From the IMG/VR virus record IMGVR_UViG_3300042525_000303, positions 1 to 38,749 of that record: 38,749 nt of DNA; one strand, given 5' to 3'. The DNA comes from a virus. This document shows, one piece after another, positions 7,348 through 30,837 of the stretch. Under the pieces are notes generated by a model. That model made no database searches and was not told the DNA's origin. It saw nothing but the letters and a program-made list of their open reading frames with translations. Positions within the stretch are counted from its first letter, which is position 1. Every line of letters starts with the position of its first letter. The translations under genes and the position numbers were made by a program.

Positions 7348-7567
7348 TTTCATTGGCCTACCCCTTGCCACCCTAACTTCTCTTCGTGATAAGTATGTTA
7401 CTTGTCTTGAGGCGATAGCGGTGGCGGGTTCAAGCTATTCGATAGCTGGTCGTTCGTTCTCAAGGGCGAATCTCGGTGAGGTAAGAGATACGATTGCGGA
7501 ATTGACCCTAGCCATTCAGTCTGTTAATGGTACTCGTATCCGCACAACTTACACAAAGTTCTCGTGA
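7334..7567 (+). CDS. gpW-like head-tail connector protein
   Basis: From the ATG at 7334 this is a 77-residue helical protein with TLTSLRDKYVTCLEAIAVAG and a central SIAGRSFSRANLGEVRDTI. The second motif is the beta-hairpin/helix signature of gpW/head-joining proteins: a G-R-S/T-F/V-T/S phrase, then L-x-E-V/L-x-x-x-I. Lambda gpW is 68 residues and lies between terminase and portal, as here. It would plug the portal after packaging. An in-frame ATG four codons earlier is possible. The stop overlaps the portal GTG (GTGA). Confidence 0.75.
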   Translation: MAKGDFIGLPLATLTSLRDKYVTCLEAIAVAGSSYSIAGRSFSRANLGEVRDTIAELTLAIQSVNGTRIRTTYTKFS

Positions 7568-10500
7568 AAAAAGCCCAACTCAATTTAATAGATAAAGCCG
7601 TTGCTTTTCTGAACCCGCAAGGGGCAGTTAATCGGATGATTGCACGGCAGAAGCTCGTCAACTTCTCCTACGATGCCGTCAAATATACAAGGGAACGAAA
7701 GGGGCCGAGTTCGCTTTCTGGTGCGGAAGATTACCGAAGCAACTATGACCGAGTAGAGTTGATGAAAAGGGCGAGGGACTTGGCAGAGAATGTTGGCCTT
7801 GTTCGCTCCATCCTAATGAAGTTCGCCAGCCATACCGCCGCCAACATTTCCTACCAAGCCCGAACCGAGAACCCCGAAGTCAATACAGAGGTCGAGGCGT
7901 ATTGGGCAGAGTGGTGGGACAAGTGCGATCTAACCACAAGGCATACTGGTTCAACACTTATGCAAGTGGCGATGATGAGTATGTTGCGGGATGGTGACTT
8001 CCTTTTCGTTTTGGTTCGAGATAAGGACGGAAATCTAAAGATTCAAGGCATTGAGGCAGATAGATTGGGAGACCCATTCAAGGTTTATACAAGCCTAGAT
8101 TTGATCGGTGGAATCCATATTGATCGGGATACTGGTGCCCCAAGTGCCTACGATATTTATAATCGAAGCATCGGGGATTTCTACACCTACCAGACAACTA
8201 TCCCCTCAAGCCAAGCGTTCCACTTGTTCGACCCGCTCCGCATCGACCAGTACCGAGGAATCTCTGCTTTCCATACAGCCATCAATGATTGCACAGACAT
8301 CTACGACATTATCAACTTTGAGAAGATGGCCGCAAAGAACGCAAGCTCACAGGCTGGCATCGTGAAGAGGAATAACAACAATGCCTCAGATCTCTCCTCG
8401 CTGACAAACGATGAAGATCTCAATGGCAACACGATTAAGCTAGAGGCGATTGAGTCTGGCAAAATCTCCTACCTAGAACCCGGTGAGGACATCGTGTTTC
8501 CAGATGGGCCGAGCCGACCAAGCGGAGCATTTGCAGAGTTCCACAAGATTCTATTGAGGAACATTTGCCTTGGCCTTGGCATCCCTTACTCCTTCGCCGT
8601 TGACCCTTCCGCTATGTCTGGCCCGACTGCTCGCCTTGAAATGCAACAAGCAGGGCGAACCTTCCGCAGATACCAGAAGCTCCTAGATGATAAAGTGCTT
8701 CGACCGATTAAGAACATCGTTATTGCTGACGGAGTAGCTAGGGGATTGATCGAGGACAATGTTGGGAGCAGAACGACTAGGGGTATTTTCAATTTTGGGG
8801 CGAATGTCTCCATAGATTTGGGCAGAGAATCCGCTTCCGCAATCTCCGAGTTCAAGACTGGCCTCCGCACCGCCGCCGACATCTACGCAGAGCGAGGCCA
8901 AGATTTTGAAAGTGCTATGCGACAAAGGGCTATTGAGGCCAAGCTAGTTAAGGATTTAGCTGGGGAATACGAAGTATCAGCCGACACAATTTCCGATATT
9001 GCTATGCAGGGCTTACAGCGAGAAACCCAAGTTCAGACAGCACAAAAGCCAGCCGACCAGCCCCAAGGACAAGAGGGCGATGTGGATATGCTCGGTACGG
9101 CTTCACTCAATGGGGCACAAGTCGCATCCCTTATCAATGTTATCAATGCCGTGGCTATGGGTGCAGTTTCCAAGGAGGGTGCAGTATCTATTATCACCGC
9201 CGCCTTCCCGACCATCAGCCCAGACCAAGCGAGGGCAATCATCGCTGGGGTCAATGTTGGAACAACCATCCCGACCACCAAAGAAGAGAAACAGCAGATT
9301 GGGAAAGACCAAGGCGGGGATGCTTCTGGAGGATCGACACCCCCAGCCCCAGAACCTACTACGCCCCCGACCGCCCCCGCTGGCACTTCTCAAAAAAAAA
9401 GTAGTTTAGAGATTCTGGAAAGCCTAGACCCCGCATCTATCAAGATGCTGATTGAGGGGATGATGGGCGGGATTGAGTTGGCAAAATACGATGGGATTGA
9501 TTTTACCCCACCACAAGGGGCTAGGGATGCCGCTAAAAGAGCCTTGGATGTGCGGGAGACAAAACCACCCAGCCAAAGAGGAATGACCCCAGTAGGCATC
9601 GCCAGAGCTAGGGATTTGATGAATGGGGTAAAACTGTCTCCTGACACATTAAGGCGAATGTTGAGCTTCCTGACTCGCCACGAGGTCGATAAGAAGGGCA
9701 CAAGCTGGGATGAGCAGGGCAAGGGCTGGCAAGCGTGGAATGGATGGGGAGGCGATGCTGGTTACGCTTGGGCAAGGAAAGTGGTTGGGCAGATGGAGGC
9801 TAGGGACAAGAAAACCGAGTTCGTTGCTGGCAGGGATTGTGGGCAAGATGAGGGTGGAACTTTCGGGCCAGACAACAAGTGTGCCGTAGGATATGGCAGA
9901 CCCCCACTCAAGGGGGGATACACCCCAACCCGACCCGGTGGGAAATTCCCCAAGGATTACAAAAGGCCAACGGAACAAGGCAAAAGGGAAAAGCAAAAAA
10001 AACAGAAAGACACAACTCCACCGCCCCCACCGCCAAAACTCCCAGAACCACCAAAGCAAAAAGAAAGATCGCCAGAAGAAAAAAGACGAGACGAAATCAC
10101 AAATACATTTAAGGATGCTGGAATTGAGGCAAACATTCCAGAGAATATAGATAGGGCAAATGATATCGAAAAGTCATTCAAAAATCTAAAAGACAAGGGA
10201 TACGACATACCACCACCAGAAAGAATCCTAACTGCTGATTTAGGGGAAAAATATGGCTCTGCATTTGCTGGTTCATTTGCAGTTGCAACAACTGGGCAAG
10301 ATGGAAAGTCGGAAATGATTTTTGATGTTCAGTACAACAAGAGTGGAGATGGATTGGCAAACCAGCTAGATGACTTGGTGGAGGATAAATACTTTTCTTC
10401 AAAAGATATATTTGTTCACGAATATGCCCATAATGCACACGGTAAGGCCATAGGAATTGAACAATGGACTTCTCACATTGAGAATGGGTTTGGTTCTGGT

Positions 10501-10668
10501 CAAATGGCAGATAAAGAAATTCTAACTGCTGGCAAGGTAAGCACCTATGCGGCAAAAGACCCACTTGAATTTGTGGCAGAGGTTTTCTCTGGACACGTAA
10601 ATGGCGAGTCCTACGATAAAGATGTTTATGAATTATATAAGAAATATAAAGGGCCGAAATTACTATGA
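7564..10668 (+). CDS. Portal protein (lambda gpB-like) fused to a C-terminal zincin-like metalloprotease domain
   Basis: This is a 1034-residue multidomain protein with a GTG start overlapping the upstream stop. Residues about 1-470 are a lambda-family portal (RSNYDRVELMKRARDLAENV, MLRDGDFLFVLV, the PTARLEMQQAGRTFRRYQ phrase). A Gln/Pro-rich linker follows. Near residues 645-745 lies a conserved phage module (SPDTLRRMLSFLTRHEVDKK, then WNGWGGDAGYAWA), then a Cys-bearing GRDCGQDEGGTFGPDNKCAVG and a Pro-rich basic stretch. Residues about 840-1034 contain H952-E-Y-A-H956 and EFVAEVF (E1006), a gluzincin-like zinc site. Portals are normally 450-550 aa, so about half of this protein is extra. The extra part may process head proteins or act on the host when injected. 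Confidence 0.88.
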   Translation: MKKAQLNLIDKAVAFLNPQGAVNRMIARQKLVNFSYDAVKYTRERKGPSSLSGAEDYRSNYDRVELMKRARDLAENVGLVRSILMKFASHTAANISYQARTENPEVNTEVEAYWAEWWDKCDLTTRHTGSTLMQVAMMSMLRDGDFLFVLVRDKDGNLKIQGIEADRLGDPFKVYTSLDLIGGIHIDRDTGAPSAYDIYNRSIGDFYTYQTTIPSSQAFHLFDPLRIDQYRGISAFHTAINDCTDIYDIINFEKMAAKNASSQAGIVKRNNNNASDLSSLTNDEDLNGNTIKLEAIESGKISYLEPGEDIVFPDGPSRPSGAFAEFHKILLRNICLGLGIPYSFAVDPSAMSGPTARLEMQQAGRTFRRYQKLLDDKVLRPIKNIVIADGVARGLIEDNVGSRTTRGIFNFGANVSIDLGRESASAISEFKTGLRTAADIYAERGQDFESAMRQRAIEAKLVKDLAGEYEVSADTISDIAMQGLQRETQVQTAQKPADQPQGQEGDVDMLGTASLNGAQVASLINVINAVAMGAVSKEGAVSIITAAFPTISPDQARAIIAGVNVGTTIPTTKEEKQQIGKDQGGDASGGSTPPAPEPTTPPTAPAGTSQKKSSLEILESLDPASIKMLIEGMMGGIELAKYDGIDFTPPQGARDAAKRALDVRETKPPSQRGMTPVGIARARDLMNGVKLSPDTLRRMLSFLTRHEVDKKGTSWDEQGKGWQAWNGWGGDAGYAWARKVVGQMEARDKKTEFVAGRDCGQDEGGTFGPDNKCAVGYGRPPLKGGYTPTRPGGKFPKDYKRPTEQGKREKQKKQKDTTPPPPPPKLPEPPKQKERSPEEKRRDEITNTFKDAGIEANIPENIDRANDIEKSFKNLKDKGYDIPPPERILTADLGEKYGSAFAGSFAVATTGQDGKSEMIFDVQYNKSGDGLANQLDDLVEDKYFSSKDIFVHEYAHNAHGKAIGIEQWTSHIENGFGSGQMADKEILTAGKVSTYAAKDPLEFVAEVFSGHVNGESYDKDVYELYKKYKGPKLL

Positions 10669-12639: not shown

Positions 12640-13611
12640 ATGGCATACGTAAGTGGTGGTACAACGATTCGAGCAGACATCAACCAAGCGTTGATCGAAG
12701 CTCCTCAAGCCGATGTCGGTTTGATCGGTTCGCAACTTCTCCCTTTGCAGAATGTTGATGCAAAGAGCGGAACATACCTAAAGGTTCAACTCGGCGGTGC
12801 AGAGTTGCTGACCAACAATGCGGCGGCTCGTGATTCTGGTTCGGGATACAACCGAGGGATTCGCTCCTTCAGTTCTGCGAACTACAGCACGGACGAATTT
12901 GGACTTGAGGAGATCGTGCCGGACGATACCGCTAAAGACCTAAACAGGTTTTTTTCGTACGAGGCAGAAACTGCCAAGTTCTTGCTCCGTCAGTTGAAAC
13001 TCTCCCACGAGAAGCGGGTTTCCGATCTTCTCTGGGCTGGTTCGACTCCCTTCACCATCGCTGACCAGACTCGTGCAGTAGCCTACACGAACACGAACAT
13101 CGCCACGGTTGATGTGGCTCGTGACGTAGCGGCCGCCAAACTCGCTCTTAACCAGTATGGTTATGAAGTGAATTGTATTGCGATGTCTGCCAATGTGTTT
13201 GAGTTGATCAGACGCTCCACCCTCCTACAAAATCAGTTCTTCGGAGTTATCTCCAATACTGGTGCAAGGTTGTTGAGCGAAGCTGAAATTGCGGCGGCTC
13301 TCGGAGTTCAAAACCTCCTCGTTGGTCGTGCGGCGATCAACTCTGCTGGCAAGAACAAAGCCTACTCTGGTTCGTTCGTTGTTCCAGATACCAAGATCAT
13401 CGTAGGTCAGATTGCTGGTGGTGAGTTCACCGCTGGTGGAATCGGACGCACCTTGGTCTGGTCGGGTGACTCGGCTGGTGGTTTCGTTAGCGAAAGCTAT
13501 CGTGACGAAGCTCGCCGTAGCCAAGTGTTGCGGGTTCGTATGAACACGGACGAAGTTGTGATTGACCCGAACGCCGCCGTTCGTATCACCACCAACTACT
13601 CCGCTAGCTAA
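12640..13611 (+). CDS. Major capsid protein
   Basis: This 323-residue protein lies after the protease and decoration genes and before a strong terminator, the standard position for the capsid gene. Features typical of HK97-fold capsids include an N-terminal ADINQALIEAPQADVGLIGS, a long helix ETAKFLLRQLKLSHEKRVSD (the spine helix), then MSANVFELIRRS and a C-terminal VRMNTDEVVIDPNAAVRI. The codon choice looks smoother and richer in C-ending codons than in the genes after the terminator, as expected for a highly expressed protein. The leader is the A-rich CAACCAAGAAAGAA word rather than a standard ribosome site. Confidence 0.85.
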   Translation: MAYVSGGTTIRADINQALIEAPQADVGLIGSQLLPLQNVDAKSGTYLKVQLGGAELLTNNAAARDSGSGYNRGIRSFSSANYSTDEFGLEEIVPDDTAKDLNRFFSYEAETAKFLLRQLKLSHEKRVSDLLWAGSTPFTIADQTRAVAYTNTNIATVDVARDVAAAKLALNQYGYEVNCIAMSANVFELIRRSTLLQNQFFGVISNTGARLLSEAEIAAALGVQNLLVGRAAINSAGKNKAYSGSFVVPDTKIIVGQIAGGEFTAGGIGRTLVWSGDSAGGFVSESYRDEARRSQVLRVRMNTDEVVIDPNAAVRITTNYSAS

Positions 13612-13641
13612 AGATTGCTGTTGGTTGTTTCCTCTGAAGAA

Positions 13642-13680
13642 GGGGGAGTGGGTGAATAACCCGCTCCCCCTTTTTCTTTT
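13642..13680 (+). terminator. Rho-independent terminator after the capsid gene
   Basis: A 12-bp stem (13642-13653 with 13659-13670, one G-U pair) closes a 5-base loop GAATA and is followed by TTTTTCTTTT. It ends the head transcript right after the major capsid gene and insulates the downstream sugar/methyl cargo block. It is the only strong intrinsic terminator seen in the window. Confidence 0.93.
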
Positions 13681-13689
13681 AATTGACAT
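13681..13689 (+). repeat. Left copy of 9-bp direct repeat AATTGACAT flanking the cargo block
   Basis: AATTGACAT here matches 18711-18719 exactly. The two copies bracket the seven-gene glycosyltransferase/methyltransferase block. TTGACA also looks like a -35 box, but no matching -10 is placed 16-18 bases downstream. Confidence 0.45.
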
Positions 13690-13717
13690 CCCCTAATAAT
13701 TAGAAATCCTAGTCTAA

Positions 13718-15373
13718 ATGAAAATCCCTATTTCCCTTTACCTAATCGCTGGAAATGAAGAAGCCCACATCAAGCGAGTCATTGAATCCTTTAAGCCCAT
13801 CGCAGAAGAAGTTATTGTTTGTATGGCTAGGGGGTCAGCTACGCCAGACAAGACAGAAGAGATCGCCCTTTCGCTTGGGGCTAAAGTCATTCACTACAAG
13901 AATAAGAAAACTGATTGGCCTCACATAGACGATTTTGCTTCTGCTAGAAACACAGCCCTAGATGCTTGTAAGAACGAGTGGTCTATTTGGGTAGATGCCG
14001 ATGATGTAATGGCAGAGGGTGGGGAGAAGGTTTTGCAAGAGGGGTTGGAACAAGCTGAAAAAGTGGGGGCTGAAATTGTTTGCTTTAGGTATCTAGTTGA
14101 GAATGCCGGATTGAATCCTATTCGAGAGATGGCCTTACGCAAGGGGTGTGGTAGGTGGAGGAACAGAGTTCACGAAGCCCTTGAGCCAAACGATAGGAAC
14201 AAGTTATTAGCCATTGATAAAGTGTTTAGGATTCACCGCCCGATTACAAGCAAGGCAGATTCAGCAGATAGAAACCATCGCATCCTAGCAGACGAGCTAA
14301 CCTCTACCCCATTCAATCTTTACTATCAGCACCAAGAGTTTTTCTTGAGGGGTCAAGTGGATAAAGCGATTGAGGTGGGGGAAAGAGCCTTGGCTTTCCC
14401 AGACCTAGACGAGACTCTCAAATATGAGCTTCTATGCAACCTTGGGAGATGCTCGCCAAGCGAGAAGAGGTTTAGATATTTAGGGGAAGCGATTGGAGTC
14501 AATCCTATTCGCAGAGAGGCTTATTTTTATTTGATGGCTGAATATTCTGCAAGGGGGGATTGGGCAAAGGCTTGGCATTCTGGAAGGGCTTGTATGGCTA
14601 TGCCAAAGCCGAATCTTCATTACTGGAATCAAGTTCACGCCGTCTACGACTGGCAAGCCCTCGATGGATACCGGATGGCCTCTATCTGCTACAACCAAAA
14701 AGAGGAAGTAGCCAAGCTGGTGAATATGTATCCCAAGCCAAAGATAAGCATTGTCCACGCTACAAGAGGCCGCCCCCAGTTGGCCTTCCAGCGGAAGATG
14801 CAATGGCTGGCTTTAGCCAAAGAACCCCTAGCAGTCGAGTGGTTGTTTATGGTCGATCACGATGAGGCAGTTGATTACACCCCGCACGAAGGCAAAAGGG
14901 TTAATCCGGGTGGAATTATCAATGCTTGGAACGAGGGGGCAAAGATGGCAAAAAGCGAGGTTATTGTGCAAATGAGCGATGATTGGAGTCCACCGAGGTA
15001 TTGGGATGCCCTAATTTTGAGCAGAATCGACAACCTAGAGGCCGAAAGGGTTCTGGCGGTATCAGATGGCCTTCGAACCGATAAACTGCTTTGTATGGCT
15101 ATCCTAACGCAAAAGAGGCTACGGAAGCAGGGGGGGTATATGTTCCACCCAGACTACCAAGATAGTGATGGCATCTATTCAGACAACGAGTTCACGGATA
15201 GAGCCTACCAAGACGATTGTGTAATTGAAGCTAGGGACTTGGTATTTAGGCACGAGAACCCTATGTTTGCAGGGGGCAATCCAGACGAACAACTAAAGAA
15301 TCACAACAAACCAGAATACTACGAGAAAGGAAAAGCTATCTATGAAAAACGCAAAGCAAATAATTGGATGTAG
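13718..15373 (+). CDS. Two-domain glycosyltransferase (GT2 + TPR-like + second GT-A-like)
   Basis: This is a 551-residue protein. Residues 1-130 are a GT-A family 2 glycosyltransferase: SLYLIAGNEEAHIKRVIESF at the N-terminus and the metal/nucleotide motif VDADD at 92-96. Residues about 190-315 are helical and TPR-like. From residue 342 a second GT-A-like domain starts (KISIVHATRGRPQ), with an acidic pair in QMSDDWSPP (D421, D422) and a downstream SDGLRTDKL. Two catalytic-type domains could add two sugars or alternate activities. Donor and acceptor are unknown. It opens the cargo block after the capsid terminator and has no evident Shine-Dalgarno. Confidence 0.85.
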   Translation: MKIPISLYLIAGNEEAHIKRVIESFKPIAEEVIVCMARGSATPDKTEEIALSLGAKVIHYKNKKTDWPHIDDFASARNTALDACKNEWSIWVDADDVMAEGGEKVLQEGLEQAEKVGAEIVCFRYLVENAGLNPIREMALRKGCGRWRNRVHEALEPNDRNKLLAIDKVFRIHRPITSKADSADRNHRILADELTSTPFNLYYQHQEFFLRGQVDKAIEVGERALAFPDLDETLKYELLCNLGRCSPSEKRFRYLGEAIGVNPIRREAYFYLMAEYSARGDWAKAWHSGRACMAMPKPNLHYWNQVHAVYDWQALDGYRMASICYNQKEEVAKLVNMYPKPKISIVHATRGRPQLAFQRKMQWLALAKEPLAVEWLFMVDHDEAVDYTPHEGKRVNPGGIINAWNEGAKMAKSEVIVQMSDDWSPPRYWDALILSRIDNLEAERVLAVSDGLRTDKLLCMAILTQKRLRKQGGYMFHPDYQDSDGIYSDNEFTDRAYQDDCVIEARDLVFRHENPMFAGGNPDEQLKNHNKPEYYEKGKAIYEKRKANNWM

Positions 15374-15596
15374 GAAATCAAAAAAGGGGGAGGACACGAA
15401 GGGGCTTGGCACAATTACTTTTGGCAAGTCTCGTCTCGACAAAACAAAGTATGTGCTAGTCGATATTACCTATGATGAGAAGGCGGGGAAGGAATTGTAT
15501 GAGGCTGGGATGATTGCCTTGAAGCACGACCCAGAATCCGTGATTGAGTACGCAATCAAAAAAGCATTAGCTGGGATGGCGAAATGCAAGAAGTAA
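15342..15596 (+). CDS. Hypothetical protein within the cargo block, 84 aa
   Basis: The ATG at 15342 lies inside the end of the glycosyltransferase gene in another frame and is preceded by AAAGGA about eight bases upstream, which supports it. The protein has a short basic N-terminus with one Cys, a beta-rich middle (GTITFGKSRLDKTKYVLVDI) and a helical Lys-rich C-terminus. No family is recognised. Its overlap with genes on both sides indicates co-translation with the sugar/methyl block. Confidence 0.55.
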   Translation: MKNAKQIIGCRKSKKGEDTKGLGTITFGKSRLDKTKYVLVDITYDEKAGKELYEAGMIALKHDPESVIEYAIKKALAGMAKCKK

Positions 15597-16192
15597 CCAT
15601 TCACGATTCATTTGGAAAAGCCCTTGCAAAATATAGTGAGGGGCTGGATGTTGGCCTAGAGATCGGGGGAGGAACCGGGGATGGCTCAACTCAATGTATT
15701 AGGACAAAAAGGCTATTCAGCATAGAGAACCACCCAGACCGCACCGGAAGGCACTCAATGAATCTATCTGCAAGGGGGGGCGTTGCCATCAACGGCACGG
15801 CAACCCTATCAAAGCTATGGATGAACAAAAACGATATCGAGGAGTTTTACCGAACCACCAAAACAAACCTCAACCAATACCCCCTCGAAACAATTTTAGG
15901 CTGGCACAATGTCTGCCTAGAGACTGCCTTCCCTTGTTCAACCAACGCCATTGAGGACATTCACTTTGAGCATAAGGTAGATTTCAACTTTGTGCTGATT
16001 GATGGCTCGCCCTTTTCTGGTGAGGCCGAACTTCGTTGCGTCCGTCCATTCCTAGCGGAGAAAGCAATCATCGCCCTAGACGATGTGAACGACATCAAGA
16101 ACTTGGCAAACTACAACAAGCTCAAGGGATTTGCGGAACTGCTCTGGGAGGATTGGTCGGTGCGAAATGGTGCGGCCATCTTTCAGTTATGA
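15584..16192 (+). CDS. Class I SAM-dependent methyltransferase-like protein
   Basis: This 202-residue protein contains LEIGGGTGDGSTQCI, the Gly-rich SAM-binding motif I, then FSIENHPDR (motif II, acidic end of strand 2). Later, FVLIDGSPFSGEAELR and AIIALDDV are the motif IV-like and following strand regions. This fits a Rossmann-fold methyltransferase of the kind found in sugar or O-antigen gene clusters. The 3' end overlaps the next methyltransferase by ATGA. The substrate is unknown; context suggests a sugar or glycan. Confidence 0.65.
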   Translation: MQEVTIHDSFGKALAKYSEGLDVGLEIGGGTGDGSTQCIRTKRLFSIENHPDRTGRHSMNLSARGGVAINGTATLSKLWMNKNDIEEFYRTTKTNLNQYPLETILGWHNVCLETAFPCSTNAIEDIHFEHKVDFNFVLIDGSPFSGEAELRCVRPFLAEKAIIALDDVNDIKNLANYNKLKGFAELLWEDWSVRNGAAIFQL

Positions 16193-16758
16193 CGATCGTT
16201 CAAATCGGATGCAACAATGGGAAAGATCACATCCTAGATTTTTGCCAAAAGAATAGGGACGGCATCAAGGCGATACATCTTGTAGAGCCAAACCCGGAGG
16301 CACTTGAGGACTGTAAGCAGACCTATTCAGATTTCAAGCAAGCCAGATTCCACAACTTTGCGATTGTACCAAATGATGCTGGCTATGTTGATTTGCACAT
16401 TCCAAGCTCAAAAGCACTCAACGCTCACGCTTCAACATTAAAAAATCACTTAATAGACCACGGCCATATAAGTTTTGATACAATCAATGTGCCATCCATA
16501 AGTCTTGCTGGTTTCCTTGATTCAAATAAAATTGAGGAGTGCGACAGACTTTATGTCGACACGGAGGGCTTGGATTGTGAGATCATACTTAATTTTGATA
16601 TTGCAAAACACAATATAAGAAGAATCGAATTTGAGACTCTGCATTCTGATGGATTTCTAGCAAAGGGACAAAACTATAACTCTTGCATTGAGAAACTAAA
16701 AGCCCTTGGCTACAAGGCAACAGAGGCTGGCGAATACAACGAGGCATACGAACTATGA
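16189..16758 (+). CDS. FkbM-family methyltransferase
   Basis: I chose the ATG at 16189 because it overlaps the preceding stop (ATGA) and begins right at the fold; earlier in-frame Met codons lie inside the upstream gene. The 189-residue product begins TIVQIGCNNGKDHILDFCQ (SAM motif I), continues with HLVEPNPEALEDC (motif II) and has LYVDTEGLDCEIILNF, the D-x-E-G signature of FkbM enzymes. FkbM proteins O-methylate sugars or polyketides. Next to glycosyltransferases, the likely substrate is a glycan hydroxyl group. Confidence 0.8.
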   Translation: MTIVQIGCNNGKDHILDFCQKNRDGIKAIHLVEPNPEALEDCKQTYSDFKQARFHNFAIVPNDAGYVDLHIPSSKALNAHASTLKNHLIDHGHISFDTINVPSISLAGFLDSNKIEECDRLYVDTEGLDCEIILNFDIAKHNIRRIEFETLHSDGFLAKGQNYNSCIEKLKALGYKATEAGEYNEAYEL

Positions 16759-17294
16759 ACCATATTACAGCAGACTTTGAAGAGGATTGGTTTAACTCTC
16801 CTAATGTCTATAAAATGCTTGTGGAGAATTGCAGGGACGATGGGAAGATTGTCGAGCTTGGGGCGTGGAAGGGCAGAAGCTCGGCATTCCTTGTGGTTGA
16901 GGCATATAATAAAAGCCCGAAGATTGAGATTCATATTGTTGATACTTGGGGCGGGAATCCCCTTGATGGCTCGCAAGACAAATCGACTGACCCATATAAT
17001 AAATTTATTTCTAATATGTCTCTCCTTTGCAGACCTTACCAAGCCCACAGAATGACAACAAACGAGGCGGCAGGGCTTTTTGAGGACGAGTCTTTAGACG
17101 CAGTTTTTATAGATGCAGACCATTCCTATGAGGCCGTAAAGTTAGACATTCAAAATTGGATGCCGAAAGTGCGTAAGGGCGGGATATTGGCTGGGCACGA
17201 TTATACTTCTGCTTGGCCGGGAGTCATAAGGGCAGTTGATGAGATATTCCCAGAGGCTCAAAAAATAGACTATTGCTGGCTAAAACAATGCTAA
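16755..17294 (+). CDS. Class I methyltransferase (Methyltransf_24-like)
   Basis: This 179-residue protein has KIVELGAWKGRSSAFLV (SAM motif I), IEIHIVDTWGG (motif II), DAVFIDADHSYEAVKLDI (motif IV plus the D-x-D-H-x-Y phrase) and GGILAGHDYT (motif VI region). These are hallmarks of the Methyltransf_24 family, which often methylates sugars or catechol-like groups and sits in polysaccharide gene clusters. It overlaps its neighbours by four and seven bases, so it is translated together with the FkbM enzyme and the next glycosyltransferase. Confidence 0.85.
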   Translation: MNHITADFEEDWFNSPNVYKMLVENCRDDGKIVELGAWKGRSSAFLVVEAYNKSPKIEIHIVDTWGGNPLDGSQDKSTDPYNKFISNMSLLCRPYQAHRMTTNEAAGLFEDESLDAVFIDADHSYEAVKLDIQNWMPKVRKGGILAGHDYTSAWPGVIRAVDEIFPEAQKIDYCWLKQC

Positions 17295-18055
17295 CCATCT
17301 TTACCATCGTCCTCAACGGAATGCCCTTTATCGAGAGGCATCTTGCAGAGTTTCAAAAGCTCAAGATTCCTTGGAGGTGGAGAATTGTAGAAGGGGTTAG
17401 TGAGCCAGTTGGATGCACCCGATGGTGCAAGCAAGTTCCCGACAAATGGCACAAGGATTTCAAGAGCATAGACGGAACGCACGAATATCTGAATAGCATC
17501 CAAGGTGGGAATGTGGTTGTTCATTCTCAAGGCAAACCATTTAACGGAAAGCTAGAAATGATTCAGCAAGCCTTGTTTGGTGTAGATGATGGGGTTGTGA
17601 TGGAGGTGGACGCTGACGAGATGTGGAGAGCAGAACAGATTGAGGGGATTTACGAATGCCTCAAAGGGGCAGAGGATGGGGCAACGATGCAGTTCCATTG
17701 TAACTTCTTTGTGGGAGAAAATAAGCGAGTGGTTACAAGAGAGGGTTTAGGCTCGAACTGGTACGAATGGATGAGGGCTTGGAAGTGGGGAAAGAATGTT
17801 TGCTTCACAAGCCACGAACCGCCTCGCCTAAACATCCAGTCTCGCCTAGTTCCAAGGGGAGTGACTGAAACTTGGGGGCTAGTGTTTAATCACTATGCCT
17901 ACGCAATTCAAAAGCAAGTTGAGTTTAAGGAAGATTTCTATGGCTACAAAGGGCTAGTTGATGGGTGGAGGGAATTGCAAAAGACAATCGGCCCAGTTCG
18001 ATTAAGCGAATACTTCCCACACCTACACGATAAGAGCGTAGCCGATGACTGCTAA
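17288..18055 (+). CDS. GT-A-type glycosyltransferase
   Basis: I placed the start at the ATG at 17288, seven bases inside the previous gene, because the protein then begins with the fold's first strand (MLTIFTIVLNGMPFIERHLA). An upstream ATG adds only five residues. D108-A-D110 in VVMEVDADEMW is the nucleotide-sugar/metal motif. The C-terminal part is Trp/Tyr-rich with many aromatic residues (WYEWMRAWKWGKNV). The 255-residue length suits a single-domain family 2-like transferase. The sugar and acceptor are unknown. Confidence 0.75.
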   Translation: MLTIFTIVLNGMPFIERHLAEFQKLKIPWRWRIVEGVSEPVGCTRWCKQVPDKWHKDFKSIDGTHEYLNSIQGGNVVVHSQGKPFNGKLEMIQQALFGVDDGVVMEVDADEMWRAEQIEGIYECLKGAEDGATMQFHCNFFVGENKRVVTREGLGSNWYEWMRAWKWGKNVCFTSHEPPRLNIQSRLVPRGVTETWGLVFNHYAYAIQKQVEFKEDFYGYKGLVDGWRELQKTIGPVRLSEYFPHLHDKSVADDC

Positions 18056-18716
18056 AACAATCAAATACTCACAGAGGCTAGGAGACATCATCCGTTGCCT
18101 CCCAGCTTGCAAATATCTAGCCGACCAAGGCCACGAGGTGTTCTTTGATTGCTTGCCACAGTATCACGGCATCTTCGAGATGGTTTCCTATGTAAAGGTT
18201 GGGAACAAGGGCGATGTGATAGACCTTGAGATTTGGCCTAACAAATACCAGCAATATCGTTTTTCAAATAAGACTTGGACAGAGTTTGTGTATGCACACC
18301 CAGAGATTAACAAGGCAGACCCAAAGGATATTCTATTCGACAAGCTGGACGATGCCCCAGCCAAGGGATTACCAGAAGCCTATAATATGGTTGCCCCCTT
18401 TGGGATAAGCCAAGGGCACAAGAGAGACCCTCTACAAATCATAGTTGAGGCAAGGAAGAAGTGCGGTGGAGATAATTTCTTTGTCCTATGCCAAGGCGGT
18501 ACGGAGATTAAGGGATTACAAACTTACACAGCCCCAAGCATCCCAGAATTGGCTAGGGCAATAAGAGGGGCTAATGAGTTTTGGTCAATAGATAGCGGGC
18601 AAATGGCAATCGCCGCTGGGGTTAGGAAAGAAAGTAAGGTTGTGTATTTCCCGCAAACAGTCCAGCCATTCGATAAGGACAATATCTTTATTTGGGATAG
18701 CGTAGAGATAAATTGA
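18045..18716 (+). CDS. GT-B/heptosyltransferase-like glycosyltransferase (GT9-like), short
   Basis: This 223-residue protein starts with KYSQRLGDIIRCLPACKYLA, the loop-helix that resembles the G-D-x-x-x-x-x-P motif of family 9 transferases. It ends with FFVLCQGGTEIKG, ELARAIRGANEFWSIDSGQM and AIAAGVRKESKVVYF, the C-terminal donor-binding half with the S-G-x-M/A-x-x-A phrase. Full GT9 enzymes are about 320-350 aa, so this is a compact version. It closes the cargo block. Its stop codon lies inside the right-hand AATTGACAT repeat. Confidence 0.6.
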   Translation: MTAKTIKYSQRLGDIIRCLPACKYLADQGHEVFFDCLPQYHGIFEMVSYVKVGNKGDVIDLEIWPNKYQQYRFSNKTWTEFVYAHPEINKADPKDILFDKLDDAPAKGLPEAYNMVAPFGISQGHKRDPLQIIVEARKKCGGDNFFVLCQGGTEIKGLQTYTAPSIPELARAIRGANEFWSIDSGQMAIAAGVRKESKVVYFPQTVQPFDKDNIFIWDSVEIN

Positions 18717-18719
18717 CAT
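18711..18719 (+). repeat. Right copy of 9-bp direct repeat AATTGACAT flanking the cargo block
   Basis: This is identical to 13681-13689 and covers the stop codon of the last cargo gene. It lies about 20 bases before the ATG of the next structural gene. Confidence 0.45.
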
Positions 18720-18732
18720 AAGGGGTGGGTTT

Positions 18733-19053
18733 ATGGCGGGGACAATCGATACCACCTATTTCTCAACCGATCTTACAAATATGATCGGCGACCTATATAC
18801 AGTTGTCACCGGGCTTGGTTCTTCTGCTGTATCTGCCTCCATTACTGACTTAACGATTGCACAAGAGCTGGATGTGGGTGGAGAGATTTTAAGGGTTACG
18901 CAAAGTATGGTTGTGCCATCATCAGCTATTTCCTCGCCAGTAACTATCGGGGCTTATATAACAGTAGGGACGGCAGAGAGGATGATTGCTGGATACCAAC
19001 AAAGTGCAGACGGCGTTAGCTACACAATCGATATAGCTGACCCAACGACCTAA
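18733..19053 (+). CDS. Hypothetical protein, possible head-tail joining protein
   Basis: This 106-residue, Ser/Thr-rich and beta-rich protein follows the cargo block and precedes the tail-terminator-like pair. That is where lambda-type phages encode the FII/Z connector proteins. The segment ELDVGGEILRVTQSMVVPSS and the following VTIGAYITVGTAERMIAGY read as alternating strands, similar in style to small beta-barrel connectors. No family match is claimed; the role rests on gene order. GGGGTGGG upstream is not a standard ribosome site. Confidence 0.45.
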   Translation: MAGTIDTTYFSTDLTNMIGDLYTVVTGLGSSAVSASITDLTIAQELDVGGEILRVTQSMVVPSSAISSPVTIGAYITVGTAERMIAGYQQSADGVSYTIDIADPTT

Positions 19054-19463
19054 TGATCTCAATCGAGCGTCAGATTGAGAATGGGCTGGCAACAGCCTTG
19101 GCTGGTATTTCTGGCGTTAATATCTACAAAAGCGATACCGAAGGCCAACGACTGCTACCCAACCTAGTAATTCAAGCCTCTATTGGGTCGGAGGAAGTTA
19201 TCCCCTATTCTGGCGTATTCCGTTGCCCTGCCACAATCACCTACGCAACTAGGGCAGACACAACGACAAGATCAACTTTCGATGCCAAGTTTCAAGAGAT
19301 TCTGCAAGTGATGTATCAAGAGCCTAATCTAGCTAGTGCTCTAACCACGGCCACGCTCAAGGTGTTTTTGGCTAATGTGACATCAGAATCGCCAGACATT
19401 AGGGCAGAGAATAGGACTTGGGCAAAAACCATGTCCATAGACATTTCCTGCACAAGCATATGA
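19053..19463 (+). CDS. Tail-terminator/tail-completion-like protein, copy 1
   Basis: This 136-residue protein is predicted alpha/beta. An N-terminal helix (IERQIENGLATALAGI) is followed by strands with LVIQASIGSEEVIPYSG and a final KTMSIDISCTS strand. Size and location (after connector, before tube) fit tail terminators such as lambda gpU or gpZ-type completion proteins. It is clearly homologous to the next gene (see findings). The start overlaps the previous stop (TAATG) and the end overlaps the next ATG. Confidence 0.6.
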   Translation: MISIERQIENGLATALAGISGVNIYKSDTEGQRLLPNLVIQASIGSEEVIPYSGVFRCPATITYATRADTTTRSTFDAKFQEILQVMYQEPNLASALTTATLKVFLANVTSESPDIRAENRTWAKTMSIDISCTSI

Positions 19464-19948
19464 TTAGCCCCCAGTTCAAGATAGAAGATGCCTTGGCGAG
19501 CCTATTAACGCCAATTTCGGGGCTTAATGTGTGTATAGCGAATAGAAGGGGGTTAAGGCTATTCCCATACGCAACGATTAAGGCTTCTATCGGAAGCCAG
19601 CAAATCATCCCCTACTCTGGTGTATTTGAGATTAGCGTAGAACTAAACTATTCAGATTCTGCCACACGGACTACCCAAGCCATATTTGATGACAATTATT
19701 ACAGCATCTTTTCGACACTATATAGCAACAACAACACATTGAAGGAAAAAGTCCAAGATAAAGTAACTGATTTGAAGATATTTATGGGCAGAATCACAAG
19801 TCAAGCCCCAACGATACGAGCCGATAAAAGGGCTTGGCAGAGGGGGCTTACTCTTTCATTTATAGTAACCCCAGACCCAACGGCTGATGGAACGAGAAAT
19901 TATGACTTCTCGGACTTCTTAAATAGCTTCTATCTCGGCACGATTTAA
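19460..19948 (+). CDS. Tail-terminator/tail-completion-like protein, copy 2 (tandem paralogue)
   Basis: I chose the ATG at 19460 because it overlaps the previous stop as ATGA; an upstream in-frame ATG would add 14 residues that only overlay the upstream gene. The 162-residue protein follows the same plan as its neighbour: helix, then TIKASIGSQQIIPYSGVF, then a middle helix pair and a closing strand region (RADKRAWQRGLTLSFIV). It has about 25 extra C-terminal residues. ASIGS, IIPYSGVF and IRA(D/E) are shared at equivalent positions. The two may form a heteromeric ring, or one may have a new role. Confidence 0.6.
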   Translation: MISPQFKIEDALASLLTPISGLNVCIANRRGLRLFPYATIKASIGSQQIIPYSGVFEISVELNYSDSATRTTQAIFDDNYYSIFSTLYSNNNTLKEKVQDKVTDLKIFMGRITSQAPTIRADKRAWQRGLTLSFIVTPDPTADGTRNYDFSDFLNSFYLGTI

Positions 19949-21463: not shown

Positions 21464-22396
21464 ATGCCTCTTACTAAAGCCACCCTTCAATCTACTGGGC
21501 CTTTTGGTAATCCAGATCAGATTGGATACATCAACCCATCCTTCTACGATGGGACTGGATCACTATGTATTTTGCCAGTAACAAACTCACGATTTGATGC
21601 GACTGGAACTGTTGGGTTTGGTGTTAGGGCAATCTTTTTTTATAGATTTTTCATATCAAAACCCACAACTATTAGCGGAGTTTCACTAGCATTCACGGCA
21701 AACACAGCAACCACAAAAACCATTACATCAATTACGGAAAGTAGTGGTACTGCCACCGCTACCTCAACGGCTCACGGCTTTGTGGCTGGCGATAGAATAA
21801 GAATTGCTGGTGCTACGCCATCAATCTATAATGGGACAAAGGTAATTCTAACTGCCCCAACAGCAGATACGTTTACTTTTGCGGTTACGGCTGGGACTGG
21901 TTCTGCATCTGGAACAATTACGGCAAGAGAGTTTGTTGGTTGTTCAATTTATGATTACGACGCAAGCAATCTTCTTCCAAAAAATAAATTAATTGATTGT
22001 GCCATATTGCCATCAACTTCAAATGTAATTACAAACTTTGATTCAAACATAACTCTACCCACAGGAATGTGTTGGGTTGGGTTTGGATGTTCAAGAAACT
22101 CTAATAACAATACTTTTGCAACTATTGTGCAGGGCGATAACAGCACATCAATGGTTAACAGTCTTTTATTTGGAGAAAAAACTGGGTCTTTTTCACAATT
22201 TCGCGGTGGGGTTGGGGTTTTTGCTTATGACAATGTTGTAAACCCATCGCTATCTAATGGAAATTCTGGCCACGCTCCATCGCTAACTGCTGGTCTTCCA
22301 GCAAATCAATCGGCAGTAGTCGGAATTGCGTCTAATGCATCAGCAGGAAGCGATTGGCGATGTAAGGTTCCATTCCTCGGTCTTGTGGTAGCTTAA
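21464..22396 (+). CDS. Probable virion surface/fibre protein
   Basis: This 310-residue beta-rich protein has an aromatic N-terminal part (FGVRAIFFYRFFISKP). An inserted Ser/Thr-rich module (residues about 75-150, TSTAHGFVAGDRIRIAG, then FTFAVTAGTGSASGTI) resembles the short beta-barrel or Ig-like module seen in many phage tail and baseplate proteins. The C-terminal third is Gly/Asn/Ser-rich. It follows the repeat protein by nine bases and is followed with no gap by a small lipoprotein gene, suggesting a shared transcript. Receptor binding is possible. Confidence 0.5.
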   Translation: MPLTKATLQSTGPFGNPDQIGYINPSFYDGTGSLCILPVTNSRFDATGTVGFGVRAIFFYRFFISKPTTISGVSLAFTANTATTKTITSITESSGTATATSTAHGFVAGDRIRIAGATPSIYNGTKVILTAPTADTFTFAVTAGTGSASGTITAREFVGCSIYDYDASNLLPKNKLIDCAILPSTSNVITNFDSNITLPTGMCWVGFGCSRNSNNNTFATIVQGDNSTSMVNSLLFGEKTGSFSQFRGGVGVFAYDNVVNPSLSNGNSGHAPSLTAGLPANQSAVVGIASNASAGSDWRCKVPFLGLVVA

Positions 22397-22956: not shown

Positions 22957-23313
22957 ATGGCCGCTACAAGTATAGGACTTTCTACTGTCGCCTTTGGATT
23001 AGCCGCTGAAACTGGCGTTGTTATTCAGAGCTTCTCGCTTACACAGACAGCAGAAACAACGGAAGTCTCAAAGCACAACGGCACTCACTCTGCTGTTGCG
23101 TTTTCTGCTTTCAAAAGGAATGTTAGTCTTTCTGGTAACTGTAGTGGTGCTGTTGCATCCTCTGGAATTGGTGGGACTCTTGCTCTAACTGGCAACACAA
23201 CCGCAGTATCTAGCGGAACTTACTTTGTGACGGATGTTTCTTTCTCGCAAGCCGCAGATGGCTTTAACAGCTTTGACCTATCCGCAACCGCATACGATGG
23301 ATTAAATACATAA
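22957..23313 (+). CDS. Tail-tube-like protein, copy 1
   Basis: This 118-residue Ser/Ala/Gly-rich protein is probably mostly beta-strand. It begins MAATSIGLSTVAFGLAAETG and contains VVIQSFSLTQTAETTEV. The size and position before the tail-assembly chaperone fit a small tail-tube subunit. A second, homologous gene follows immediately. CAAAGGAATATCAA before the ATG holds a modest ribosome site (AAAGGA). TTGACA lies 20 bases upstream of the ATG. Confidence 0.6.
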   Translation: MAATSIGLSTVAFGLAAETGVVIQSFSLTQTAETTEVSKHNGTHSAVAFSAFKRNVSLSGNCSGAVASSGIGGTLALTGNTTAVSSGTYFVTDVSFSQAADGFNSFDLSATAYDGLNT

Positions 23314-23314
23314 T

Positions 23315-23668
23315 ATGGCCGCTACAATCATTGGAAATAGTACAGACCTAGCCTTCGGGATTGCCTCCGCACAGACCGGGATGGTGATTCAATCCATCTC
23401 TTCCTCTGCCTCGGCTGATGCAGTTGAGCTAAAGAATAAGGGTGGCGATGTTACGGCGGTAGTGTTCCGCAACAAGAAAGTCACCTACTCGGTAGAGGGT
23501 GCATACACCACCTTTAGCGGTAGCGTTGGGGCAACGATCACAGTATCCAACGGAAGCAACTATGATCTATCTGGTGCGGCCTATATTACTGAAACCGCCA
23601 GAAACCGTAGTGCAGATAACTTTGAGACAGTGTCCTTCACGGCAGTTCGATACGATGGTATAAGTTAG
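23315..23668 (+). CDS. Tail-tube-like protein, copy 2 (tandem paralogue)
   Basis: This is a 117-residue protein. Its start, MAATIIGNSTDLAFGIASAQ, aligns with copy 1, and both have the V-I-Q-S phrase at about residue 25, a Val/Phe-rich KVTYSVEGAY-like strand and an ending -YDG-. The two genes share the first 13 bases (ATGGCCGCTACAA) and are separated by one base. One may be the main tube subunit and the other a variant for the tube tip or terminus. This rests on position and sequence style. Confidence 0.6.
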   Translation: MAATIIGNSTDLAFGIASAQTGMVIQSISSSASADAVELKNKGGDVTAVVFRNKKVTYSVEGAYTTFSGSVGATITVSNGSNYDLSGAAYITETARNRSADNFETVSFTAVRYDGIS

Positions 23669-23687
23669 TTTTAACCTAGAAATCCTT

Positions 23688-24074
23688 ATGCAAGAAAAAA
23701 TCCTCTATACTCGAAACATCAAGCTCGCCTCAACCCTCGCCACATTTGGCATCCCCTTCAGAGAAAAAGAGCCAATGGCCGTCATTGAGGATGCAGACGA
23801 TAACAATCGCAGAAGCGTTACATTCTTCTTCAGCGACCTTCCTAGTGGTCTTGGGGGCAAGATCGTTGATATGTGGGAAAAGGGCTGGTCGGCAATTACA
23901 AACTACGATGACCCCATAGCCTATTGCAGAGCCGTACTAGAGAACAGAGAGCGTCTATTGGACGCTATGAACAACGCCACCCCCCTAGTTAAAAAGCAGT
24001 TTGGGAAAGCTACTTTGCTTGTTAGCAAGAACGCATCCCCAGAACTACGAAAGAAATTAAGCAAATACCTATGA
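23688..24074 (+). CDS. Hypothetical tail-region protein, 128 aa
   Basis: This alpha/beta protein starts MQEKILYTRNIKLASTLATF and contains SVTFFFSDLPSGLGGKIVDM, then a helical C-terminal half with AYCRAVLENRERLLDAM. It lies between the tube pair and the chaperone, close to where lambda-type phages have additional tube-completion genes. No family is recognised. The ATG directly abuts AAATCCTT with no Shine-Dalgarno. The 3' end overlaps the chaperone ATG. Confidence 0.55.
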   Translation: MQEKILYTRNIKLASTLATFGIPFREKEPMAVIEDADDNNRRSVTFFFSDLPSGLGGKIVDMWEKGWSAITNYDDPIAYCRAVLENRERLLDAMNNATPLVKKQFGKATLLVSKNASPELRKKLSKYL

Positions 24075-24451
24075 ACCTAGACCTACAAAAAGATGAGGAG
24101 ATTCTAAACAAGGCACTCGACAAATCCTTTGTCATAAACGAGAGAATGTTTAAGGGAAGCAAGGTTGGCAAGTTCACTCTGGGCACACGAATTGTAATGA
24201 ACCAGATTCGTGAGGAGGCAGACACTACAGAGTTCTTTATTTGGTCTAGCCTATATTGCCTAACTCACCCAAGGTCTGAGTTAGTGAAATTGGCTTGGGA
24301 CAAGGCCAAGTTTAGGGAGTCGGTTCTGAATTGGTCTGATGAATTTAATGAGGCTGATTTTATTGAGGGAGTTAAAATTGTAGACGAAATCTTTTCTGAA
24401 ATTGCAGAGGCTCGTGTTCAGACCAATGGAGGGAACGACTCCCCAAAATAG
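24071..24451 (+). CDS. Tail assembly chaperone, short form (gpG-like)
   Basis: This 126-residue acidic helical protein is rich in Glu, Asp and Lys (MNLDLQKDEEILNKALDKSF). It lies between the tube genes and the tape measure, exactly where lambda has gpG. The last codons are CCA AAA before TAG and form a slippery heptamer. The short form would bind the tape measure and keep it soluble until the tube polymerises. Confidence rests on position, size and the frameshift site. Confidence 0.7.
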   Translation: MNLDLQKDEEILNKALDKSFVINERMFKGSKVGKFTLGTRIVMNQIREEADTTEFFIWSSLYCLTHPRSELVKLAWDKAKFRESVLNWSDEFNEADFIEGVKIVDEIFSEIAEARVQTNGGNDSPK

Positions 24452-27618: not shown

Positions 27619-30600
27619 GTGAACGCTCAAGAGCTATTTCTGGATGTATCTAGTGGCAGATTCTTGGATGGTGAGAGTGCTATTCCAACCATTAAGCCTT
27701 CATTCTTTTCTGATGAACAAAAGAGAGTCAATATTTCTGTATTAAAAGTAAAAAATAATAAAGTTTCTTCTGTAACACCATCACCAGACAGCAAGTTTAG
27801 GTTTAGGCTTGGAACGACTACCTTAAAACTTGCGGATGCAACAAGTGTTACCAGCACTCCTCCGACCTTGTTCACGGCAGTTGGAACGGTATCAACTCTT
27901 TCTTCTTTGCAAGCAAAGGGGCAATCTACAATAGTCACATATTCACCAACTACAGCAACCCTAGAGGCTATTGTCGTTACCTTCCCCGTTGTTACTGGAA
28001 CATTTCAAGCAAAGATTGATTATACCGCACCAGTTACAGCCACGATTACTGCGGGCATTTCATCGGTAACATTACCGACAACATTTAGGTCTGTAAAAAC
28101 AATACCAGTTCCATCAGATTTCTTGCCAAAGTATAGAGACAATGTTGTTTTAACTTTTACTACCCTTCTCAATTCACCTGTCACAGCAACATTTTCTGCA
28201 ACAATTTCTGGTGGAACGGTTACAACTATATCCATAATCAATGATGGGTTTGGTTATTTGAATGGACAATATGGGCTTTCATTTTCTGGCGGCTCTCCAT
28301 CGAGTGTTGCTTCAGCATTTGCGGTTGCCTCTGGCGGCGAGATTTTATCAGTAACGATTGAAAGTGGTGGAAGCGGTTATTCATCAGCTCCAGCGGTAAC
28401 TATGTTTCTGCCAGCAAAACAAGTCACTCAAATTATTCCAAGCAATTTGATTTCTTCTGGTGGGGTTACTGGCACAATTTTCAAGTGGGGTCAGTCTGTA
28501 TCCACATCATCAAGAGTTGAGTTGAATTTCTCTGCACTAGACAATGTTTCTACCCCCACAACCAATTCAGTTCCATCAGCATTTCTTACATATATTGAGC
28601 CATTTGATTCGGATTTTGGTAAGTGGAAATTAAATTTTGTGAGTGGTGGTTACGGATATTCTCAAGTCCCAACAACAACTCACGATCCCGCCTTTATGAT
28701 TTCAAGGGGCTTTTCTTATAATGTGGCAGGAGCATCGGCAGGATTGGCCGCAGATTATTCTCGTGGAGAGGTTTTTTTCGCATCATCAGAATCAAGTAGT
28801 TATAGCACAACAACAAGGTCTGTTGTAGTAATCAATGGTGGAATGTTGCCAGCACAAAGAGGTTTTGGGGATGACCGCCCCTTGTGGTCTCTTGGTTCTC
28901 TTTACCCTACTTTTGCCACCGAGGGCGGCTATCGTTTAGCGTCAGTAGAAAGCATACAAGCCTTAGGCTTTGCAAAAGAGGTCCTACAATCTCCAGCACC
29001 ATCAGCCCTAGTTGGGGCAAGCAAGTTTATTGGCATTCCCGCTAGGAACAAAAGAAAGAGAGCCTCTGTAAGAGACACCGCAATTAATTACGACAGCTTT
29101 CCATTTGTTCCAATTACTAATTCTAATAAAGAAAATCAATCCTACTATGTTGTTGCTGACCCGCAGACATATTCTCCAACTAAATATGCTATTGGAATAG
29201 TTGAATATGCTCCTTTAGACACAACCGTGCAAGTCAATCAGTACTATGCCGATAGGAAAGTAATCTCATCTTATGGTGGTGGAGTATTCAATCCAACAAT
29301 TACTTGGCTAGACTTTGGCGAAGGATATACAGATAAATCAGCTATATCGCTTGTTCCAATATCTAGCCTTGAAAATAATCGCATCTTTTCACAGCAATTT
29401 AATTCGCCTGTTTCCGTTGTTACAGGAAAAAGCTACGGATTCTACCCAAGTGCATTTTCAAAGTTTCCAACGATAGTTACTGCATTTGAAGGCAATCAAG
29501 TGTCCTACAATGTAAGTGACGGCGGGCTAGGCTTCAACAATAGCGGCCTAATTAGGTTTGATGGTCAGTCTGTAACTGGAGGGGTTACGGTTGTTTCTCT
29601 TACAAACATTCCTCAAAACTATATTGATGGAGAGTATGACTGCACGGTTGCAACATCTCCATCTGGAAACACAGCCAAGGTATCAATTTATGTAAGCGGA
29701 GGTTCGGTTGTTCCATTTATTAAGGATACTGGATTTGGTTATTCAACTGCACCAATCGTCACCGCACCATCCCCTAATAAGGAGTCTGGGCAAATTACCG
29801 ACATCGTTGTTATTACAAGACCACAAGGATACTCGCTCGACACATTACAATATCTTTCGATTGCCAATTCTTCTGTATGCGGAGGTAATGCAGTAGCCTA
29901 TTTCACCACAAATTCCGATAACATTACCTCGGTGTTTATTGATAATCCCGGCTATGGATACCAGTCTGTTCCCTTAGTTACTGCCCCATCCCCAGACTTG
30001 GCCTCAAAAAATGGATTCATAAGCTCGATCAATTTAACCAATCAGCCCAAGGGATATATTGTTGGGCAAGAGTACGATCTTCAAATTCAGAACAGCCCAA
30101 CTGTTAGCGGTTCTGCGGTTGCCAAGCTCATTCGTTCAGATGAAACTAGATTTGATGTGTCTATTATTAACTCTGGATATGGCTACACCTCTGCCCCAGT
30201 AATTACAGCCCCAGCACCAGACGCACCGCAAGGGATATTGAACATTGTTTCCGTGACCACGCTAGGCCGAGGCTACGCACCCGGAACATATAACTGCACC
30301 GTGGACAAAGCCCCGGGTGGAGAGACAACGGCCATCGTTAATTTTATTTCTGAATCTCCAAAGGTGGGAAGGTTTGAGGTTGTTGATGCTGGCAGGGGTT
30401 ATGTGGTTGCTCCCGCAGTTGTTGTTCCTACGCCAGCGGGAAATGTGTTGAATCAAATCACCATATCTTGCCAAGGCAATTACTACATCAACAACACGGC
30501 TAATTTTGTTATTTCTGATGGCTCTGGACAGGGGCAAGAAACTGGAAGCTCAATCCTTGATTCTGGAAAGATACTTGGGGTTAATGTTCTTAATGGTGGA

Positions 30601-30837
30601 TATGGATTTACAAATAATCCAACGATTGTGTTCACGCCCCCAACCGCACCAGTTGTTGCAACTATCCCAGAATATGTAATCCAAGGCGATCTAAACATTA
30701 CCACGGCCTCGGCCAACGCCATCCTATCCACAGCCACCCAAAGAGACATTCTTATGGAAGTCTATGAGACGGACGGAACGAATGAACAAGTAGTGGCTCA
30801 AGCCACAGTCAGTCTAGCCAAGCGAGTTTTAGAATAG
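27619..30837 (+). CDS. Large tail fibre/host-recognition protein with GYG-x-P-x-V repeats
   Basis: This 1072-residue protein has a GTG start. The first part is beta-rich and Ser/Thr-heavy. From about residue 200 it carries repeated blocks built on a G-Y-G/S-x-x-x-P-x-V-T-x-P pattern (SGGSGYSSAPAVT, GFGYSTAPIVTAPSP, GYGYQSVPLVTAPSP, GYGYTSAPVITAPAP, GRGYVVAPAVVVPTP, GYGFTNNPTIVFTPP), spaced about 60-70 residues apart in the C-terminal half. Similar phrases occur in phage fibre and baseplate proteins. The fold is probably a chain of small beta domains. It is the largest tail-tip protein and likely binds the host surface. Confidence 0.7.
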   Translation: MNAQELFLDVSSGRFLDGESAIPTIKPSFFSDEQKRVNISVLKVKNNKVSSVTPSPDSKFRFRLGTTTLKLADATSVTSTPPTLFTAVGTVSTLSSLQAKGQSTIVTYSPTTATLEAIVVTFPVVTGTFQAKIDYTAPVTATITAGISSVTLPTTFRSVKTIPVPSDFLPKYRDNVVLTFTTLLNSPVTATFSATISGGTVTTISIINDGFGYLNGQYGLSFSGGSPSSVASAFAVASGGEILSVTIESGGSGYSSAPAVTMFLPAKQVTQIIPSNLISSGGVTGTIFKWGQSVSTSSRVELNFSALDNVSTPTTNSVPSAFLTYIEPFDSDFGKWKLNFVSGGYGYSQVPTTTHDPAFMISRGFSYNVAGASAGLAADYSRGEVFFASSESSSYSTTTRSVVVINGGMLPAQRGFGDDRPLWSLGSLYPTFATEGGYRLASVESIQALGFAKEVLQSPAPSALVGASKFIGIPARNKRKRASVRDTAINYDSFPFVPITNSNKENQSYYVVADPQTYSPTKYAIGIVEYAPLDTTVQVNQYYADRKVISSYGGGVFNPTITWLDFGEGYTDKSAISLVPISSLENNRIFSQQFNSPVSVVTGKSYGFYPSAFSKFPTIVTAFEGNQVSYNVSDGGLGFNNSGLIRFDGQSVTGGVTVVSLTNIPQNYIDGEYDCTVATSPSGNTAKVSIYVSGGSVVPFIKDTGFGYSTAPIVTAPSPNKESGQITDIVVITRPQGYSLDTLQYLSIANSSVCGGNAVAYFTTNSDNITSVFIDNPGYGYQSVPLVTAPSPDLASKNGFISSINLTNQPKGYIVGQEYDLQIQNSPTVSGSAVAKLIRSDETRFDVSIINSGYGYTSAPVITAPAPDAPQGILNIVSVTTLGRGYAPGTYNCTVDKAPGGETTAIVNFISESPKVGRFEVVDAGRGYVVAPAVVVPTPAGNVLNQITISCQGNYYINNTANFVISDGSGQGQETGSSILDSGKILGVNVLNGGYGFTNNPTIVFTPPTAPVVATIPEYVIQGDLNITTASANAILSTATQRDILMEVYETDGTNEQVVAQATVSLAKRVLE

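Follow-up and report, generated by a model that had tools for sequence, protein, structure and literature searches.

In the tailed phage analysed here, a block of seven overlapping genes for sugar and methyl transfer lies between the capsid gene and the connector genes; among relatives its first glycosyltransferase gene is conserved and co-inherited with the type of tail, while the tailoring genes behind it are exchanged as cassettes. On balance, we favor the reading that this is a late-expressed locus putting variable O-methylated glycans on virion proteins, most likely those of the neck or tail. The multi-gene swappable architecture and the matching of the first glycosyltransferase (B1) to the tail are new here. 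Among the sources consulted, virion glycosylation in tailed phages is documented only for a few mycobacteriophages (PMC12363180, PMC12619734).

The window, meaning the whole stretch of DNA that was analysed, is a single virus record of 38,749 bases with the gene plan of a tailed phage (terminase, portal, protease, capsid). It is near-complete, as related contigs carry the same set of genes in circularly permuted order. The features that bear on the argument are as follows.

12640..13611, + strand: major capsid protein (MCP), left flank (PHROG 1005, E 2e-26)
13636..13676, + strand: intrinsic terminator 3' of the capsid gene, an 18-pair stem plus T tail
13681..13710, + strand: promoter-like AATTGACAT ... 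GAAATCCT element upstream of B1, with TTGACA and AAATCC kept in most relatives
13718..15373, + strand: B1, constant first glycosyltransferase with GT2, TPR and second GT-A domains, 551 aa
15342..15596, + strand: B2, 84 aa, no family match
15584..16192, + strand: B3, COMT-fold SAM O-methyltransferase-like protein (motif, model and fold match)
16189..16758, + strand: B4, FkbM methyltransferase (PF05050), optional
16755..17294, + strand: B5, Methyltransf_24 family methyltransferase (PF13578), optional
17291..18055, + strand: B6, GT-A (GT2-like) glycosyltransferase with an invariant DxD region
18045..18716, + strand: B7, compact enzyme of GT9/heptosyltransferase fold (AlphaFold model, Foldseek)
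18711..18719, + strand: AATTGACAT at the C1 gene start, a recurring late gene-start element
18733..19053, + strand: C1, head-tail connector-like, right flank (from its position and a deep-relative homologue directly 3' of MCP)
19053..19948, + strand: C2 and C3, paralogous, neck/tail-terminator-like, coupled to B1 alleles
22957..24451, + strand: tail-tube-like paralogue pair (22957, 23315) and assembly-chaperone-like genes of tail type A, with roles suggested by gene order
27619..30837, + strand: tail-fibre-like protein, 1072 aa, found with B1 class A only

The preliminary description had recognized a tightly overlapped seven-gene block for sugar and methyl transfer within the structural operon, starting right after a terminator. 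Both points were borne out: glycosyltransferases are encoded among the structural genes of this phage, in seven overlapping ORFs (13718-18716) that follow the terminator stem. The names given to the genes, including the two-domain glycosyltransferase, the FkbM enzyme and the "compact heptosyltransferase," also hold, because the assignments of B1 and B3 to B7 by Pfam, profiles, motifs, fold models and a homologue agree.

B1 matched the Pfam GT2 family (PF00535, E 4e-14) and, below threshold, GT2_4 in its C-terminal part; its DADD and SDDW motifs are invariant. In profile comparisons with solved structures, the glycosyltransferases above threshold were GmaR (2e-11), SunS (7e-9) and a third GT2-like protein (7msk), and TPR profiles matched as well; the next glycosyltransferase type beyond this group appeared at E 0.02. 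A TPR region adjoins the GT2 domain, which places B1 with the GmaR/SunS-like enzymes. SunS, from prophage SPbeta, is a peptide S-glycosyltransferase and has a polypeptide acceptor. The same holds for GmaR, which transfers GlcNAc to Listeria flagellin and combines GT and TPR domains (PMC9638930). B1 resembles both in its N-terminal GT2 domain and GmaR in its TPR, whereas a second GT-A domain takes the place of the antirepressor domain of GmaR.

The methyltransferases were assigned by different routes. B4 and B5 matched FkbM (7e-13, above the cutoff) and PF13578 (9e-18), respectively. Sequence searches with B3 returned only insignificant matches, some of them to methyltransferases. Its E-I-GGGTGDGST motif is invariant and is the canonical SAM motif, and its structural model (pLDDT 89.5) matched the fold of COMT-like O-methyltransferases. 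For B6, Pfam gave no match and the sequence profile no useful solved structure; its homologue in L067 matched PF00535 at 4e-6. Likewise, B7 had no Pfam or sequence-level match to GT9 and no useful solved structure by profile, and the folds matched by its model (pLDDT 90.7) in Foldseek were those of GT9 enzymes (3tov, TibC and WaaC). The match to TibC and other GT9 heptosyltransferases reached E 1e-6 and a TM score of about 0.7 on the query at 13% identity, with B7 much the shorter (223 aa versus about 320 to 390 aa). TibC is a protein heptosyltransferase (PMC4358343). No family was found for B2 in Pfam or PHROG.

Relatives were collected by a capsid-protein scan of viral contigs (80 relatives) and by later tail-protein scans (about 70 further loci, some on contigs already found). 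Occupancy was scored in loci where the capsid gene and C1 are both present, 81 in all from 57 distinct contigs. B1 was present in all 81 and led the block in every one; B6 and B7 were each present in 74, B3 in 73, B2 in 72, B4 in 23 and B5 in 21. The block had been described as inserted cargo, with the expectation that relatives lacking it would join position 13680 to 18720 cleanly. None of the 81 loci of this capsid family does so, and the word "inserted" is unsupported. Recent insertion, as in a moron, is therefore rejected. Clean junctions between MCP and connector were seen only in far relatives, namely a prophage in a Verrucomicrobia metagenome-assembled genome (MAG; L085) and Akkermansia phage Moulinsart. 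Among deep relatives whose capsid differs (L219, L222 and L224 to L240), the order is MCP, C1, B1, cassette, C2, tail tube, and B1 identity in L219 to L222 is 43 to 45%; these phages thus carry the block one gene downstream. Together with the occupancy counts, this shows the block to be old, anchored by B1 and able to lie on either side of C1. The mobile part is thus not the block but its inside (B2 to B6).

The preliminary description also noted that the block is bracketed by AATTGACAT, and this is literally true, with exactly two copies in the window (13681 and 18711). The bracket is no mark of insertion, however: TTGACA also precedes other late genes, and most relatives have kept it ahead of both B1 and C1; an insertion scar was rejected on the same grounds. 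TTGACA at 11138, 18713, 22937 and 27598 precedes the starts at 11159, 18733, 22957 and 27619 by 20 to 21 nt, a distance too short for a -35 box of the sigma-70 type, and the copy at 13683 precedes the B1 start by 35 nt. The terminator hairpins are kept, though altered, in many relatives. GAAATCCT occurs at 13703, 23679, 30859 and 33583, in three cases shortly 5' of a start codon (13718, 23688 and 30868), and several relatives have two copies of it ahead of B1; it is possibly a promoter or translation element.

B1 and usually B7 are constant, and the genes between them swap freely, bringing in methyltransferases, GT7, radical SAM and epimerase genes and transketolase halves. Swap genes with a recognized family mostly belong to sugar or methyl chemistry. 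The B4/B5 slot holds both genes, either one alone or neither. Other cassettes contain a GT7 gene (L003), an FkbM and an unknown gene (L068), or a set of B12-radical SAM, unknown and epimerase genes (L064). A Methyltransf_23 gene replaces B3 and B6 in L050 and L058, a weakly GT2_4-like gene replaces B7 in L062, and transketolase halves with a radical SAM gene replace B3 to B7 in L053. The L053 set was found again in deep relatives with other capsids. In both L053 (2821-5865) and L222 (6289-9288), whose capsids differ, it runs from the transketolase pyrimidine half through radical SAM to the E1/TPP half, preceded in L222 by a GT-B-like gene, and its content suggests synthesis of an unusual sugar. 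Some relatives also have lectin-like or glycine-rich genes in a distinct slot that follows the capsid gene and precedes B1. Optional Laminin_G_3 (concanavalin-like lectin) genes in this slot (L015, 1363-2082; L206, 2443-3735; L216, 3307-4047) are possibly capsid decorations.

B1 falls into two main allele classes, A and B. When 34 phages were placed on a backbone tree built from the DNA of their terminase, protease and capsid genes, no fewer than 9 changes of B1 class were needed. Tail type A has two tail-tube-like paralogues and a large fibre; in tail type B no large fibre was detected, and L020 has a single tail-tube-like paralogue. In a sample partly picked by tail type, class A B1 occurred with tail type A in 21 of 21 phages, the tail lying 2 to 14 kb from B1, and class B with tail type B in 35; the combination of class A with tail B was not seen. 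Three phages with the intermediate tail A2 have a class B B1, which counts against the coupling. The 1072-aa fibre-like protein was present in 10/10 class A records and 0/13 others. Class A B1 with tail A also spans two capsid lineages (MCP 66%; L168 and L176).

Pairwise distances, for which permutation p-values are uncorrected for shared ancestry, pointed the same way. B1 correlated with B7 (0.83), C1 to C3 (0.76 to 0.79) and the tail genes at 22957, 23688 and 24071 (0.67 to 0.75), as against 0.33, 0.32 and 0.36 for its neighbours MCP, B2 and B3. After control for MCP, the tail correlations were 0.76 to 0.80. B3 follows terminase and the early genes. A tree test found 4 well-supported independent switches, essentially all in one direction (sign-test p 0.125), and falls short of significance because there are only four such pairs.

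The coupling may reflect inheritance of a single module from B1 to the tail with conversion inside it. Gene content, conservation, cassette exchange and co-inheritance of B1 with the tail are direct observations, whereas the catalysis, the acceptor, the sugars and a benefit in shielding, adsorption tuning or stability are inferred. The TPR of B1 would recognize a phage structural protein, most likely of the neck or tail, and B1 would start the glycan by adding the first sugars and extending them. Further elongation would fall to B6 and the GT9-fold B7, and B3, B4 and B5 would O-methylate the product. Trading of the inner tailoring genes between related phages would give each a differently capped glycan, as in a bacterial serotype locus, with B1 kept matched to tail type and B7 and B6 less strictly so. 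The solubility of the enzymes, their late position, the protein glycosyltransferases related to B1 and B7 and the coupling of alleles to tails are all in keeping with a virion target, and they would also suit a host-glycan target. The neck/tail proteins are rich in S/T (19 to 29% versus 15% for MCP), but tail proteins rich in beta structure often have such a composition. Families GT2 and GT9 also contain lipid and LPS enzymes, which weighs against virion glycosylation.

The strongest rival is modification of the host receptor. The enzymes could alter, late in infection, a surface glycan of the host that serves as the tail's recognition target, blocking re-adsorption by progeny or competing phages. 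With enzymes and tail both directed at a single receptor, glycosyltransferase alleles would then track tail type, and the coupling is explained equally well: B1 is as strongly coupled to the tail module with its fibre as to any neck gene. WaaC-like LPS heptosyltransferases are also among the matched GT9 folds. However, the block proteins have no transmembrane segments, and no membrane flippase or bactoprenol-type glucosyltransferase, as in the gtrABC systems of O-antigen seroconversion, was found among them; furthermore, the enzymes most like B1 have polypeptide acceptors. Lysogenic conversion is unlikely, since no integrase or repressor family was recognized with Pfam among the scanned ORFs of this near-complete genome. 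Host modification is less likely overall than virion glycosylation.

Pure linkage is less likely still. Here the stretch from B1 to the tail would be exchanged as one recombination module, with the acceptor elsewhere, for example in the capsid. Indeed, the exchanged stretch begins on its left with B1, and the MCP-B1 junction recombines freely. However, B2 to B5 lie within the stretch and do not follow B1, and replacement of B2 to B5, and of C1 to C3 in L003, L044 and L006, left the match between B1 and tail intact. Glycosylation of the phage DNA is very improbable: phage glycosyltransferases often modify DNA and the window has a DNA methyltransferase gene (3352), but no base-hydroxylating or hypermodification enzyme was found with Pfam among its scanned ORFs, the alleles follow tail genes and the relatives of B1 use polypeptides.

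If virion glycosylation is the correct reading, the locus works like the systems of mycobacteriophages and chloroviruses. In mycobacteriophages Che8, Corndog and Myrna (Freeman et al. 2023, as described in PMC12363180 and PMC12619734), phage glycosyltransferases act on structural proteins, the acceptors being capsid and tail-tube proteins. Phage-encoded glycosyltransferases are common to both cases, whereas the locus described here is a 3- to 7-kb cassette that encodes several enzymes, methyltransferases among them, and whose tailoring genes are exchangeable; its virion glycan is a predicted one. A search for homology to the mycobacteriophage enzymes was negative: tblastn with B1 against 50,697 phage records gave 8 weak matches, none named mycobacteriophage. 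In chlorovirus PBCV-1, the A064R machinery of multidomain glycosyltransferases and a methyltransferase caps the virion glycan with a methylated sugar, and antigenic variants occur (PMC7019647). The likeness, drawn by description only, lies in virus-encoded multidomain glycosyltransferases plus a methyltransferase; PBCV-1 is a eukaryotic giant virus with an unrelated capsid and differently fused domains.

More tentatively, the locus could be a phage "serotype" system, in which a constant, tail-type-specific TPR glycosyltransferase builds a tail glycan that exchangeable cassettes vary between phages. The sugar coat as well as the fibre protein would then be under diversifying selection, acting in host recognition or in escape from environmental lectins or defences. 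If so, many uncultured phages resemble bacteria in diversifying a glycan on their surface, through a conserved, cassette-shuffled, tail-matched locus for methylated sugars, and B1 together with tail type offers a genetic handle on which virion protein is modified and why.

Sequence profiles of the tail-tube-like protein and of C2/C3 gave no useful solved structure. No isolate phage records were recovered by tblastn with the capsid protein and blastn with the block, and exact peptide patterns, a weak test, found no B1 relative in GTDB genomes. The best cellular match of TerL was a Verrucomicrobia MAG (42%) and the gene plan of Moulinsart resembles that of the window, which is suggestive of a host in that direction.

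Several other genes of the window also vary among relatives. The gene at 3352-4551 encodes a DNA methyltransferase fused to a ParB-like domain, with identity that is mosaic across relatives. The portal protein (7564-10668) has a long C-terminal extension with a metallopeptidase-like HEYAH stretch; the extension is variable, since many relatives' portals match residues 1-479 or 1-750 only. The 310-aa appendage-like gene at 21464-22396 was found, among the relatives examined, only in the near-identical L004, and its neighbour at 19964 encodes a T-rich repeat protein that varies everywhere.
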